In this document: piece after piece, positions 5,011-14,010 of the stretch | Layout: every line of letters begins with the position of its first letter | Position numbering within the stretch: the stretch's first letter is position 1 | Assembly (NCBI GenBank): GCA_022824265.1 | Contig: JAJEAG010000005.1 | Span: forward strand, 21,966-85,965 | Source: Candidatus Poribacteria bacterium | GTDB lineage: Bacteria > Poribacteria > WGA-4E > WGA-3G | Length of the DNA stretch: 64,000 nucleotides | Reading direction: 5' to 3' | The notes under the pieces: generated by a model | Databases searched by the model: none | The model's input: only the letters and a program-made list of their open reading frames with translations | What the model was told of the DNA's origin: nothing | Made by a program: the position numbers and the translations under genes

Positions 5011-8000
5011 TCATCGGGTTGACGCATGTAATGTAGTTTCTAATTTACGTTTGAGTATTACACCCCATTGACCCACTACCCAGAGTGAATTCCCCTCTTT
5101 TGCTCGTGTTATAACATATAGGTTGTTGTCAATATCAGTATGTTCTTGTTCCCATGTTTCACCTCCATCAGTTGAACGTATAATAGTCCCTTCATCTCCG
5201 ACAGCATATATGACATCTTCTGAAAGAGCAAGAATACTGTTTAATGTTTTGGCATTGACGGATAATTGTGGTTGCCAAGTAAAACCGCCATCCACAGTCT
5301 TTAGAATAATTCCATCTTCTCCTACAGCCCATCCTTTTCTCTTAGTGGCAAATGATACTGCAAGTAAGTCAGACAGAGTAGTAGATTCGTGATATTTCCA
5401 ATATTCACCACCGTTGATAGTTCTTTGGATTGCTCCACCTTGTCCAACTGCCCATCCAAGTGGTGCGAATTTCATATCAACACTTGTGAGTGTGTCGTTG
5501 ACTGTGGTCCGTTGTAGCGTCCATGTGGGACCTCCGTCTTTGTTGTGAATGATGTCCCCAAATCTACCAACCGCCCATCCTTCTGAAAACTTACCAAAAA
5601 CAACATCGTTCATTGAGTAGTTTCCTGGAGCCTCACCTTCATAGAATGGAGGTCTTTCAGGGGTGTCACCTGCTGTCCAAGTATTTCCATCTGTGGTATA
5701 TAGTACGGTTCCGTCACGACGCATCGTCCAACTCCATTTTGGTTCAAGACTTGCGAAGTGAATACCGATAAGGCGTTGCCGTGGTTGGATTGCCAGTTTT
5801 TCCCATGTTTTTCCGCCATCCTGTGTTTCCATTAATGTTCCATCATTATTTCCAATCCATCCAATCTTGTCATTGTAAAAAAGCACTTCACGGAAATCAT
5901 TACGATCTTGCTCACCGAGTTGACGTTCCCATGTTTCGCCGCCATCTGTGGTGCGATATATACTCCCTGCACCTCCAACTGCCCATGCATGTTGTGTATC
6001 AAGAAAGAATACATTTGCAATTCCAGAAGCCGCTCTACTTCTAAACCGTCTTCTCGGTTCACGGGGTGGAGTAGGTTGTTGTCTTGATTGATCAGTCTGT
6101 TCAACGTTAGGTGGGATTGTCCCTTCAGGCGCAAGGCTGCCTGGTTGTTGCCGTTGCTGGCTTAACTGCCGTTGCAGTACATCAAATGGGGAGAATTCAG
6201 GTGATGTAGTTGATACTTCTTGATCGTCTGATTCATCGTTTTCTGTTTCTACAGGAGTTTGTTCTACTGGTTGTTGTAACGCAACTCTACCATCACCAGT
6301 ATTTATGAAAATGGGTTTCCAATTTAATCCTTGGTCCTTCGTAATATAAACGCTACCACCACCAATACCCCAGGCATCTGTATGCGAATTGAATGTAATA
6401 TTGCGTAACCCTCGTGTGCTCTGAGATGCAGCTTGCATTTTCCATGTTTCTCCGCCATCACCTGTTAGCAAAGAGTTTCCATCCCCAAGTATTACCCAAC
6501 CATTCATTTCATCTTGAAAGTGTACTGCTATGCCTGCTTGATTAGTTTTTGTTTGTATTTTCCAGTAATTTCCACCATCTACAGTGTGTAGAATGAAACC
6601 ACCATCTCGTCGTTGTGGAGCAACTGCCCATCCTTCTAAACTATTAATAAAATGAAGGTCTGTTATGTTAGCATTTGTCGTCCCAGTTTTCTGGACTTTC
6701 CAAGTTTTTCCACCGTCGTTTGTGTGTACTATTTGTCCAATTGATGCCCCAAGCCATCCTTCATCTTTACTGATGAACTGCATCATAGTCATCCGTGGTA
6801 AGTTTTGTTGAGTTGTTCTTACCATTGGTTTCCACGATTCGCCACCGTTGTTTGTTTGAAGTAGAATACCTGATCCAAGAATAAATCCATTTTGTTTATC
6901 TATAAATTCAACTTCTCGTAAATTGGCACTAACCCCACTATGTTGAGGTAGCCATGTTTCTCCACCATCAGTTGTACGTGCAATTACTCCACCAGAACCG
7001 ACTGTCCATCCATTTGCTTCATCTATAAAATGTGTGTCTGCAAAATTTGTTCTCCAAGTTGCCTGTCGAATTATATCCCAGTGGTAGACAACCGGAACAA
7101 TAGGTGTCTCCTCTTCAGCAACTATAATTTCTGGTTCGGTAGCCACAGGTGGTAAGTTTGTCGGCAATTGAACATTATCAACTGTATATCGCATTGCGAT
7201 TCCACCTTTACCTACAGCGACCACTCCATCAGGTGAAAGAGCTAATCCGTAAAGATCGTTCTCTGTACCGCTTTTTTGAAGTTCCCATTTTTTACCGCTG
7301 TTTATAGTGGTTAACATGACTCCGTCATCACCGACAATTAAACCGTGCTGTGTATCTGAAAAATAGAGTTTATTTAGGTTTTTTTGTGTCCCGCTGTGTT
7401 GGACATTCCAATCTTTACCACCATTTTTTGTGTGTAGTATTTCACCAAATTGACCAACAATCCATCCGTTGTTTTCATCAACGAAGTATACAGCATATAG
7501 TTCATTAAAAGTATCTGTATCTTGTTTATTCCAAGTCAGACCCCCATCTTCGGTTGCAAGGCATACACCGGGCCAACCGATTGTCCATCCTCTTTTTTCA
7601 TCAAGGAAAAACACGCCTTTTAACATAATTGCATGAAAATCACCGATAGGAATTTGTGGAAGCCAAGTATTTCCACCATTTATTGTGTGCATTATTGTGC
7701 CGACATCTCCAACAATCCATCCGACTTTTTCATTGACAAAATGCACAGCCCGAAGTGTAAATTGTGAAGAACCACGTTGTGGTTCCCATTTTGTACCTCC
7801 ATCTGTAGTATGGATAATAAGTCCACGATCACCAACTGCCCAACCGTGTTTATCGGTTGCAAAGTAGATATTCCAAATTCCATCCCAGATTTCTGAATCC
7901 AATTCTGTCCATGTTTCTCCACCATCATTGGTTGTCACCATCGTTCCACCCTTACCCACAGCAATAGCACGGTTAGCATCTGTAAACTGTACATTCTGTA

Positions 8001-9048
8001 GGTCATTTGCTGTTGTACCGCTAACCATCTCCCAGGTCTTACCTGCGTCCTTGGTGTGCATAATGGTGCCTGACCAACCGATTGCCCATGCCTCATTTCG
8101 TGTGGTGAACTGGACACCAGTCAAATTATTTTCTATACCGCTCTCCATCAATTGCCAGTTATCGCCACCGTCTTCTGTGCGTGTAATGAATCCTATATCT
8201 GACACAGCAATACCGAAATTTCTATCTGCAAAATGGATAGAGTTAATAGTCTCTCGGACGTGTCCATTGATCAGTGGAATACGACTATCCTGTTTCTCCC
8301 AATTTACACCCGCTGATGTGGTATGGAAAATCGATCCATCACTCCCAGCAATCCACCCTACATTATCACTGATGAAAAACACATGTTTGTTGTCATTAAT
8401 TAATCGGTCACGTTCACCTTCAAAGCGGTTGCTCTGTTCTTGCCATGATTCACCACCGTTTGTGGTATGAAAAATTCTATCATAGGTGCCAACCGTCCAT
8501 CCTCTGTAATTATCAGCGAAGTAGACACCGTTTAGTGGGAATTCACTTACATGTTGATATCGATTCCATGATCTCCCACCATTTTTTGTGTAAAGGACAT
8601 CAGAATCTTCACCAACAACCCATCCTTGTTTCCCGTTTGAAAAGAAGACATCACGTAACATCGCAGAAGAACCACTTTTTTGCAAACTCCAGAATCTACC
8701 ACCATCATCGGTTGTTGCGATAAGTCCATTATCTCCGACCGCCCATCCATCTTTTTCATTTGCAAAATAGACAGCCTTGAAATCACCAGTAGTATTTACT
8801 TCCTGCTTCTGCCATGTTTTTCCACCGTCTGGAGTATGTACAATTGTACCACCAAGTCCAACTAACCATCCTTTATTAGCGTTTACAAAGTGTAGATCGG
8901 TGAAGTTTGTTTCCCAATCGGCTTTACGTACTGCTTCCATCTTTACACAACCGTTGATAAGGATCATAACTCCAAGAATAAAGAGAGCTGTAGTTGTAAT
9001 AAGAGTTGTGTTGTTTCTTAGTGACATCTTCTGGTATTTAAATTGCAT
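5011..9048 (-). CDS. large YCF48/BNR-repeat beta-propeller lipoprotein (1345 aa)
   Basis: Lipobox-like MILINGC; more than 20 degenerate repeats of the type GWAVGDxGxIxxTxDGGxTWxxQxSGT. Confidence 0.9.
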   Translation of the reverse strand: MQFKYQKMSLRNNTTLITTTALFILGVMILINGCVKMEAVRKADWETNFTDLHFVNANKGWLVGLGGTIVHTPDGGKTWQKQEVNTTGDFKAVYFANEKDGWAVGDNGLIATTDDGGRFWSLQKSGSSAMLRDVFFSNGKQGWVVGEDSDVLYTKNGGRSWNRYQHVSEFPLNGVYFADNYRGWTVGTYDRIFHTTNGGESWQEQSNRFEGERDRLINDNKHVFFISDNVGWIAGSDGSIFHTTSAGVNWEKQDSRIPLINGHVRETINSIHFADRNFGIAVSDIGFITRTEDGGDNWQLMESGIENNLTGVQFTTRNEAWAIGWSGTIMHTKDAGKTWEMVSGTTANDLQNVQFTDANRAIAVGKGGTMVTTNDGGETWTELDSEIWDGIWNIYFATDKHGWAVGDRGLIIHTTDGGTKWEPQRGSSQFTLRAVHFVNEKVGWIVGDVGTIMHTINGGNTWLPQIPIGDFHAIMLKGVFFLDEKRGWTIGWPGVCLATEDGGLTWNKQDTDTFNELYAVYFVDENNGWIVGQFGEILHTKNGGKDWNVQHSGTQKNLNKLYFSDTQHGLIVGDDGVMLTTINSGKKWELQKSGTENDLYGLALSPDGVVAVGKGGIAMRYTVDNVQLPTNLPPVATEPEIIVAEEETPIVPVVYHWDIIRQATWRTNFADTHFIDEANGWTVGSGGVIARTTDGGETWLPQHSGVSANLREVEFIDKQNGFILGSGILLQTNNGGESWKPMVRTTQQNLPRMTMMQFISKDEGWLGASIGQIVHTNDGGKTWKVQKTGTTNANITDLHFINSLEGWAVAPQRRDGGFILHTVDGGNYWKIQTKTNQAGIAVHFQDEMNGWVILGDGNSLLTGDGGETWKMQAASQSTRGLRNITFNSHTDAWGIGGGSVYITKDQGLNWKPIFINTGDGRVALQQPVEQTPVETENDESDDQEVSTTSPEFSPFDVLQRQLSQQRQQPGSLAPEGTIPPNVEQTDQSRQQPTPPREPRRRFRSRAASGIANVFFLDTQHAWAVGGAGSIYRTTDGGETWERQLGEQDRNDFREVLFYNDKIGWIGNNDGTLMETQDGGKTWEKLAIQPRQRLIGIHFASLEPKWSWTMRRDGTVLYTTDGNTWTAGDTPERPPFYEGEAPGNYSMNDVVFGKFSEGWAVGRFGDIIHNKDGGPTWTLQRTTVNDTLTSVDMKFAPLGWAVGQGGAIQRTINGGEYWKYHESTTLSDLLAVSFATKRKGWAVGEDGIILKTVDGGFTWQPQLSVNAKTLNSILALSEDVIYAVGDEGTIIRSTDGGETWEQEHTDIDNNLYVITRAKEGNSLWVVGQWGVILKRKLETTLHASTR

Positions 9049-10946: not shown

Positions 10947-12545
10947 ATGGACATATTGAGATTAACGTTCTTGAAGTATTTTGGGATTATTCTATTCTGT
11001 TTTGTCTTGTGGAGTCCACTTGTGGTAGCAGACAATCATGGAAAAGAAGAACCCGTGAGTTATTATAAACAGATTCTTCCGTTGCTCAAACGGAGTTGTC
11101 AAGGATGCCATCATCCCGGTGATCCAAATGGTGACTTGATTGTGACATCTTATGATGAACTGAAACGGGGAGGAATGGCAGGGGAAGCGATTATCCCTGG
11201 AAAACCTGATGAAAGTCTCATCATTGAGCTCATTTCTGGCGACCCTCCCGCAATGCCCCAGAACCAAGAACCACTTACTATAGATGAGATAGACCTATTC
11301 AAACGTTGGATTCTTGAGGGGGCAAAAGACGATACACCTGAGAAAACTAACGATGTTGGAGAGGGAAACTATCCGAAATATACTGTGCCACCGGTAGTTT
11401 CTGCGATGGCATTTTCTCCTGATGGTACTACACTTGCTGTATCAGGCGTTGGTGAAGTATTGTTGTATGATTCTGTTACTTTGGAAATCAAAGCACGATT
11501 GGTAGGCAATGCCCGTCGCATACAATCCATTGTATATACAAATGAGGGCAAAATACTCGGTATTGCTGGTGGATCTCCCGCACAATTTGGTGAAGTACAG
11601 TTGTGGGATACTACTACAAACAAACTTGTCAAAGCAATTCGATCTACTTTTGATACTATCTACGGACTCTCATTCTCACCAAATTCCAGTCGTGTCGCAT
11701 TCGGATCATCTGATCATACGGTGCGAGTTATTTCTATTGCGGATGAAAAGGAACTTGTGAAATTCGACAATCACAGTGACTGGGTTTTTGGTACGGTTTT
11801 TTCTACGGATGGATCACACTTTGTCAGTTGTAGTCGTGACACAGCACTTAAGTTGGTGGAGGTAGATACAGGTTCGTTTGTTGATGATGTGAACTCAAGC
11901 AATAAAGGCTATGGAGAAATCAATGCAATTGCACGACATCCGAATGCAGACCAAGTTTTGAGTGTCGGAGAAGACAGAATTCCACGGTTATACAAAATGT
12001 TCCGTGAAACTCGGAGAGATGTAGGGAATACAGATTTCAACCTAATTAGAGCGTATGAAGCACAAGGTGGGTCAATTGATGCTGTTGCGTTTTCTACAGA
12101 TGGCAATAAATTTGCAGTGGGAAGTTCCGCAGGTGAAGCACGTATATATAATGTATCAGACGGAAAACGTCTATTATCTATGCAAGGTGATACCGTAGGA
12201 ATATTTGCTCTTGCGTTTCATCCTGATGGAACGAAACTCGCTACGGGTGGATTTGATGGTAAGATCCGTGTGTTTGACGCTAACTCAGGCAAACAACTAC
12301 ATATTTTTATGTCAGTGCCAATAGAAACTGATGCAAGTGAAGAACTTACTTTAGCTGTATCGGGTATGACGTGAGGGGTTTGTGTTGAAAAAGTGCAGGA
12401 TGCACTTACAAAACATCAGAATGTGATTAGTGCTGAAGTTTCTCTACCAGATCAAGCGGTCATTAAGGTACGGAAGGATAGTGTTTCGGTTGATGAACTT
12501 ACGAATGTAATTAAGACAGCGGGATTTACTGCTACTGCTAAGTAA
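10947..12545 (+). CDS. putative selenoprotein: cytochrome c-like (PSCyt) + WD40 repeats + C-terminal HMA domain with predicted Sec at TGA 12372-12374
   Basis: ORF track ends at TGA 12374 (..LTLAVSGMT*). The same frame continues GVCVEKVQDALTKHQNVISAEVSLPDQAVIKVRKDSVSVDELTNVIKTAGFTATAK to TAA at 12543-12545, reconstituting an HMA domain with UGVC in place of CxxC. N-terminus has CQGCH and WD40 repeats follow. Confidence 0.8.
12378..12414 (+). promoter_or_regulatory. putative bacterial SECIS element
   Basis: Perfect hairpin AAGTGCA-GGA-TGCACTT at 12391-12407, GGA loop starting 23 nt after the TGA; additional lower pairing TTTGT (12379-12383) with ACAAA (12408-12412). Matches general bSECIS geometry (apical loop G, about 16-37 nt from UGA). 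Confidence 0.65.
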
Positions 12546-12555
12546 TAACCTAAAT

Positions 12556-14010
12556 ATGTCTGTTGAAACACCAAATATCTTATGGATATGCACTGATCAA
12601 CAGCGTTATGATACAATAGGAGCATTAGGTAATCCTTACGTATCCACACCTAATATTGATAGTTTGGTTGCTGAAGGTGTAACGTTTACGCATGCGTATT
12701 GTCAAAGTCCTATTTGCACTCCGAGTCGTGCAAGTTTCTTGACAGGTATGTATCCGAGTGCAGTTCATGTAAATGGCAACGGTAATGATTATTTTCCGGG
12801 TACATTTCCACTTGTCACACGCACACTTGCAGACATTGGATACGATTGTGGATTGATTGGAAAATTACATCTTGCGAGTGCTTTTCGTAGAATAGAGCCG
12901 CGTGCAGATGATGGTTACCGATATTGGCAATATAGCCATGCACCACGAGATGACTGGGAGGAAGGACACGATTACGCTGATTGGGTTCGTTCAAAAGGAT
13001 ATATACTTCGCGAGTTAACCCAAAACCCGGAAGGTGTCCCAGCAGAATTACATCAAACAACTTGGTGTGCTGAAAAGACGATAGAGTTTATCTGTGAGAA
13101 ACGAGATGTCCCTTGGCTTGCAAGTGTTAACATTTATGATCCACATCCTCCGTTCAACCCACCTCAGTCATATAGGGAACAGTTTAATCCGGAAGACATG
13201 CCAGGACCGCTTTTCAAGGAGAGTGATTTAGAACAACAATCTCAACTCAGTAAAATTGATTTTCAGTCAAAAGTTCGTACACCTGATGAATTGGATATAC
13301 GAAATCCTATTATACCACAGGCACCGCGAGGCAAGACAAAACCTGAATTGGTAGGACAAAGGGATGCAAAGACACTGACGGCTGCGTATTATGCCATGAT
13401 TAAACTGATTGACGATCAATTGGGACGAATACTGAATGTATTGAATGAAACAGGACAACGAGAGAATACCGTTATCATTTTCACAAGCGATCACGGGGAA
13501 ATGTTAGGGGATCATGGACTTATTCAAAAAGGTTGTCGGTTTTATGAAGGTTTGGTCAGAGTGCCTTTGATTTTCTCGTGGCAAGGACATTTTGAAGACG
13601 GTTTAAAAAGCGAAGCACTCGTTGAACTTGTTGACAAAACACCAACTCTATTGGAATTAGCAGGTTTACCTATTCCTGAGCAGATGCACGGACGTTCGCT
13701 ATTATCTATCCTCCGAGGTGAATCAGATGCAAATCATCATCGTGACTTTGTAAGGTGTGAATATTATGATGCACTTGATCAACGTGACCATACTTTCGCA
13801 ACAATGTATCGGGATAAGCGTTATAAGTTAGTAGTGTATCATGGACATCAAGAAGGAGAACTCTACGATTTGGTTGATGATCCTGATGAGTTCCATAATC
13901 TCTGGAATGATAGCAATATGCAAGATATTAAATTGGACTTGTTAAAAAGAAGTTTTGATGCTTCAATGGTTTCTATGGACAGAGGTCCACAACGTGTCGG
14001 ACCAATGTAA
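12556..14010 (+). CDS. sulfatase family protein (arylsulfatase-like, Cys-type)
   Basis: NILWICTDQQRYDTIGALGNP; CTPSR formylglycine motif (SPICTPSRASFLTGMYPS); TSDHGEMLGDHGL. Confidence 0.95.
   Translation: MSVETPNILWICTDQQRYDTIGALGNPYVSTPNIDSLVAEGVTFTHAYCQSPICTPSRASFLTGMYPSAVHVNGNGNDYFPGTFPLVTRTLADIGYDCGLIGKLHLASAFRRIEPRADDGYRYWQYSHAPRDDWEEGHDYADWVRSKGYILRELTQNPEGVPAELHQTTWCAEKTIEFICEKRDVPWLASVNIYDPHPPFNPPQSYREQFNPEDMPGPLFKESDLEQQSQLSKIDFQSKVRTPDELDIRNPIIPQAPRGKTKPELVGQRDAKTLTAAYYAMIKLIDDQLGRILNVLNETGQRENTVIIFTSDHGEMLGDHGLIQKGCRFYEGLVRVPLIFSWQGHFEDGLKSEALVELVDKTPTLLELAGLPIPEQMHGRSLLSILRGESDANHHRDFVRCEYYDALDQRDHTFATMYRDKRYKLVVYHGHQEGELYDLVDDPDEFHNLWNDSNMQDIKLDLLKRSFDASMVSMDRGPQRVGPM

Follow-up and report, generated by a model that had tools for sequence, protein, structure and literature searches.

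A hairpin that is almost certainly a selenocysteine insertion signal for the UGA of a Poribacteria metal-binding gene

Described bacterial SECIS elements and metal-related selenoproteins

Bacterial SECIS (bSECIS) elements are modeled as hairpins with an apical loop of 3–9 nt, an upper stem of 4–16 bp, a G as the first or second loop base (or both), 16–37 nt between the UGA and the apical loop, and a minimum free energy at or below −7.5 kcal/mol (PMC13188914 Fig. 2). Among metal-related selenoproteins, a cation-transporting ATPase with a UxxC motif has been described (PMC13188914 Table 1). Putative mercuric transport selenoproteins are also known, and MerP is listed in the GOS survey.

We analyzed a 64,000-nt stretch of Candidatus Poribacteria DNA (hereafter the window; GCA_022824265.1, JAJEAG010000005.1:21,966–85,965) from a genome of 4.45 Mb. 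Close homologs are likewise Candidatus Poribacteria sequences, in keeping with this origin. A first-pass annotation had pointed to a bacterial-SECIS-like stem–loop just 3′ of a UGA in a gene encoding a heavy-metal-associated (HMA) domain. The sequence bears out its basic geometry: AAGTGCA and TGCACTT (12391–12407) form a perfect 7-bp Watson–Crick stem, and the 3-nt loop, which starts with GG, begins 23 nt after the UGA (Table 1). With a fold energy of −12.1 kcal/mol and a position inside the ORF, the hairpin agrees with the bSECIS model (PMC13188914) on every count, and none of the defining constraints differs. It has further hallmarks of such elements: The UGA replaces a Cys of homologues, the frame continues, selA, selB, selD, and tRNA-Sec are present in the genome, and the structure is kept with UGA and lost with Cys (core pairs in 121/121 vs. 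3/43 domains).

The first-pass annotation also pointed to a likeness to the Escherichia coli fdhF SECIS, which we checked against the real E. coli fdhF sequence in the region after its UGA. The apical cores are indeed alike (UGCA-GGUC-UGCA in fdhF; UGCA-GGA-UGCA or UGCA-GUC-UGCA in Poribacteria), and the loop starts with GG as in fdhF, with GU in the Poribacteria paralogues. The likeness stops there: The loop is 3 nt rather than 4 nt long, the spacing is 23 nt rather than 18 nt, no U lies between GG and UGCA, and there is no conserved lower stem. E. coli SelB contacts the bulged U of the fdhF SECIS. A bulged U of this type, in the upper stem below UGCA, is absent from the Poribacteria UGA-HMA family, in which the stem is continuous; the general bSECIS model has no such requirement.

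At the protein level, the relevant NCBIfam models are NF041115 (UxxU metal-binding (seleno)protein) and NF045683 (MerT/CopZ fusion-like selenoprotein), both of which match the HMA domains studied here. NF041115 describes a UxxU motif, unlike the UxxC seen here, and gave 37.1 (the PSCyt1-WD40-HMA protein), 50.5, and 48.4 bits, whereas its cut-off is 95; for NF045683, a paralog scored 44 against a cut-off of 375. In contrast to the known metal selenoproteins, the domain is here fused to PSCyt1-WD40 or forms a small, secreted-looking gene. The PSCyt1-WD40 body itself is shared, at 40%–46% identity, with proteins of Verrucomicrobia and others, but the match stops near residue 460 and no HMA was recognized in the loci examined. 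In two Poribacteria homologs of the PSCyt1-WD40 part (L218 and L219), too, no HMA was recognized after the propeller.

The bSECIS mechanism is thus ordinary and HMA-type selenoproteins are already known, whereas the PSCyt1-WD40-HMA selenoprotein, with its fusion architecture and UxxC motif, and a set of HMA-repeat proteins with three predicted Sec residues appear to be undescribed. Our literature search found nothing joining Poribacteria with selenoproteins; a paper that brings Sec together with sponge microbiomes containing Poribacteria mentions the SelA/SelB machinery only. The present predictions would add the PSCyt1-WD40-HMA (UxxC) family, related HMA selenoproteins, and the three-Sec HMA-repeat proteins to this phylum of sponge symbionts.

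The HMA gene and its in-frame UGA

Table 1. Features of the predicted PSCyt1-WD40-HMA selenoprotein gene and its candidate bSECIS (positions in the window)
Feature	Position	Strand	Basis
Predicted PSCyt1-WD40-HMA selenoprotein ORF	10947..12545	+	532 aa to TAA with UGA as Sec (U476); translation, Pfam
PSCyt1 (planctomycete cytochrome c) domain, CQGCH motif, residues 51–104	11097..11258	+	PF07635, 40 bits, cut-off 22
WD40 beta-propeller region, about residues 150–455	11394..12311	+	PF00400; AlphaFold2
HMA (heavy-metal-associated) domain spanning the UGA	12348..12527	+	PF00403, one TGA inside
Putative Sec UGA, first position of UxxC (GMTUGVC)	12372..12374	+	TGA in 57/57 non-redundant UGA orthologs
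Second motif ligand, Cys codon TGT	12381..12383	+	Cys in 57/57 non-redundant UGA orthologs
Candidate bSECIS, 5′ arm AAGUGCA	12391..12397	+	Sequence, homolog pairing, RNAalifold
Candidate bSECIS, apical loop GGA	12398..12400	+	First G invariant in 121/121 UGA homologs
Candidate bSECIS, 3′ arm UGCACUU	12401..12407	+	Sequence, homolog pairing, RNAalifold
Proposed lower stem UUUGU / ACAAA	12379..12383 / 12408..12412	+	Not conserved, 48% of cells paired

The UGA takes the place of a motif Cys: In Cys homologs, the residue aligned with it is the first of the two Cys in GMxCxxC, the HMA motif. The domain that spans it scored 41.3 bits against PF00403, above the gathering cut-off of 24.8, and in an AlphaFold2 model adopts the beta-alpha-beta-beta-alpha-beta (ferredoxin-like) fold with a pLDDT of about 80; the WD40 region is strand-rich and confident in the same model, and the PSCyt1 part is of low confidence. 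All 57 non-redundant orthologs of the ORF carry TGA at the identical column, and the second-ligand Cys is encoded by TGT in 30 and by TGC in 27. A codon alignment of these orthologs gave a pN/pS of 0.16 upstream of the UGA and 0.25 downstream, the latter indicating that the part beyond the UGA is under purifying selection as protein; the hairpin lies inside a frame that stays open, as the first-pass annotation had it. Annotation with table 11 cuts UGA-HMA genes off at the UGA. The codon directly before the UGA (12369–12371) is ACG in 51/57 orthologs; so strong a bias is unusual and may have to do with the context of the UGA.

This gene has company in its genome, where three of the four HMA domains contain one UGA, in each case at the motif Cys. 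The two further UGA-HMA genes are small, lie in tandem, have signal-like N-termini, and both carry the element GTGCAG..TGCACT. A search of the 4.45-Mb genome with the pattern GTGCAGNNTGCACT returned exactly three matches, each on the coding strand and 3′ of an HMA UGA; the reversed control of GTGCAGNNTGCACT returned 0 matches in the 4.45-Mb genome.

The hairpin in Sec and Cys versions of the domain

When the 51 nt 3′ of the UGA were folded with RNAfold, the minimum-free-energy structure contained the 7-bp hairpin. The fold energy alone was unremarkable (z = −0.8 for a 74-nt segment), a thermodynamic z-score being uninformative for an element so short. The two strands of the window together contain 2,582 TGA triplets, and only 7 of these (0.27%) precede, at bSECIS spacing, a perfect stem of ≥7 bp whose loop has G as its first or second base. 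Rfam gave no match in 11900–12800 at E values up to 1.

The comparison drew on loci of 59 genomes, which provided 121 distinct HMA domains with UGA and 43 with Cys. As these sequences are related, the counts represent non-independent events: The four core pairs and the G that starts the loop were present in 121/121 UGA domains, and the core pairs were kept in 3/43 Cys domains, each of which had lost the top pair or the loop G. Among the UGA domains, the top pair was non-standard in 5/121 and the sixth pair (20,34) in 5/121. RNAalifold recovered the stem unaided from 56 non-redundant sequences. Base changes within the hairpin are mostly compensatory or wobble; the top pair changes from A-U to G-C with a Gln-to-Arg replacement, and the third pair from G-C to G-U to A-U, with Ala GCA changed to Val GTA and paired with a change of Val GTG to GTA. 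Folding, covariation, and the other UGA genes of the genome, three of the checks that the first-pass annotation had proposed, all came out in favor of its bacterial-SECIS-like reading, as did the rules of the bSECIS model and the Sec machinery. Its suggestion that UUUGU/ACAAA extends the stem fared less well: The extension can be drawn here but is not conserved, with 48% of cells paired across the 56 homologs compared with 98% for the upper stem.

The hairpin occupies the codons of V-Q-D-A-L in HMA helix 1, with the third base of CAG as the loop G, and it is here that codon choice is fixed. In the 103 tabulated UGA domains, Val was GTG in 103/103 and Ala GCA in 103/103, compared with 19% and 38%, respectively, elsewhere in the same ORFs; Gln was CAG in 93/93 (33% elsewhere) and Arg CGG in 10/10 (17% elsewhere). 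Across the 57 orthologs, 302 codon columns are conserved and degenerate; synonymous variation was absent from only three of them, each a codon of the hairpin (GTG, CAG, and GCA). The pS was 0.06 in the hairpin and about 0.66 elsewhere. Selection thus acts on the hairpin at the RNA level, and the hairpin with its frozen silent positions recurs after more than 100 related UGA codons across the phylum.

Where Cys stands in place of the UGA, the protein motif is kept and the hairpin is lost, even between repeats of one protein; this is the opposite of the outcome that the first-pass annotation had named as refuting its reading, an identical hairpin in Cys homologs. Three distant Cys orthologs (in G045, G046, and G049) keep V-Q-S/T-A-L/I with the codons CAA, AGC, GCG, or ATC and have lost the hairpin; their genomes nonetheless have tRNA-Sec and other UGA-HMA genes. 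In three multi-HMA proteins (L244, L242, and L243, from G020, G021, and G019, respectively), one or two Cys repeats come after three putative Sec repeats, and the hairpin is intact after every UGA and damaged after every Cys. A domain that exists with Sec and with Cys, at times within a single protein, offers a natural experiment on SECIS evolution, with the hairpin constrained with Sec and relaxed with Cys. Two loci (L078 and L129) show UxxxC spacing (GMTUGISCV and GMIUGISCV), with a 3-nt shift of the hairpin, which is kept as GTGCGGTCCGCAC. An HMA gene at another locus (L150, G052:C129) has, besides its UGA, a TAG among the codons of the hairpin (GTG TAG TCT GCA), and is either a decayed gene or a sequence error.

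Decoding of the UGA

A palindrome that coincides with conserved residues, in a protein family in which V-Q-x-A-L is common, could arise as a coding by-product of the conserved V-Q-D-A-L helix and have no function as RNA. We regard this as very improbable, since synonymous positions are frozen nowhere but in the hairpin, as both the column counts and the codon fractions attest. Cys paralogs and orthologs with V-Q-D/S/T-A-L or VQSAI encode it with GTT, GCG, CAA, or GAC, so that the stem is broken or the loop G is lost, and there are compensatory changes, among them the replacement of Ala by Val that goes with the GTG-to-GTA change. The comparisons of synonymous sites and of Sec with Cys domains refute it.

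A different objection is that the UGA at 12372 is an ordinary stop, giving a 475-aa PSCyt1-WD40 product and leaving the HMA frame as a residue or a separate gene. The homologs without a recognized HMA in Verrucomicrobia and elsewhere match to about residue 460, near the UGA, and UGA is a normal terminator in the window, ending 7 of 34 long ORFs (the PSCyt1-WD40-HMA ORF not counted). However, every UGA ortholog has an open HMA frame that is under purifying selection, and more than 100 domains have UGA in the place of the motif Cys, among them those of small standalone genes whose sole domain would be destroyed by termination. Together with the existence of Cys read-through orthologs, the conservation of the HMA frame beyond the UGA led us to reject a true stop, to which we give scarcely any credence. 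An in-frame UGA with conservation downstream would not by itself tell Sec from decoding by a near-cognate tRNA or from a reassigned code (e.g., Trp). The code is not reassigned, since UGA serves as the stop of other long ORFs in the window; moreover, the full Sec machinery is present, the site alternates between UGA and Cys and not Trp, and a SECIS-type hairpin tracks the UGA. The UGA stops, the machinery, and the alternation with Cys speak against code reassignment, which we reject, and leave decoding other than as Sec with a negligible probability.

Selenocysteine is thus the preferred reading, and from sequence comparison the hairpin is almost certainly the insertion signal for the UGA of this metal-binding gene. 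We consider it highly probable that the hairpin is a bSECIS bound by SelB, that the UGA is read as Sec, and that translation continues through the HMA domain. In the mechanism we propose, SelB would bind the hairpin, part of the coding sequence in the mRNA, through its C-terminal part and carry Sec-tRNA-Sec to the ribosome paused at the UGA. The UGA would then be decoded as selenocysteine, and translation would go on across the HMA domain as far as the stop codon after 12545. The resulting PSCyt1-WD40-HMA protein would have a metal or thiol site of the form Sec-x-x-Cys. By analogy with the HMA family, this site may serve in soft-metal binding or metal-coupled redox chemistry. A more speculative idea, which we think unlikely, is that the UGA and hairpin act as a selenium-responsive switch, with a PSCyt1-WD40 form resembling the HMA-less proteins made when selenium is scarce and the Sec-HMA-tailed form when it is available.

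The genome encodes the Sec machinery: tRNA-Sec (78.1 bits), selB (353.8 bits), selA (608.8 bits), and selD (361.8 bits), a gene that itself has an in-frame UGA. selB shares a contig with tRNA-Sec and sits just upstream of it. Across the phylum, tRNA-Sec was detected in 75/85 genomes. Seven of the 85 MAGs have UGA-HMA genes and yielded no tRNA-Sec; five of the seven have selB and the remaining two are 81%–83% complete, which fits assembly gaps. The UGA of selD (L158, G000:C8:37723–38649) lies in the N-terminal region, and about 16 nt downstream is a short hairpin with a CGGGU loop and a fold energy of merely −5.1 kcal/mol. Finally, the window encodes at 5011–9048 (minus strand) a 1,345-aa protein in which W-A-V-G / D-G-G-x-T-W motifs recur (BNR-like or photosystem-stability repeats), and a similar protein overlaps the tRNA-Sec neighborhood (L014, 7988–10087).
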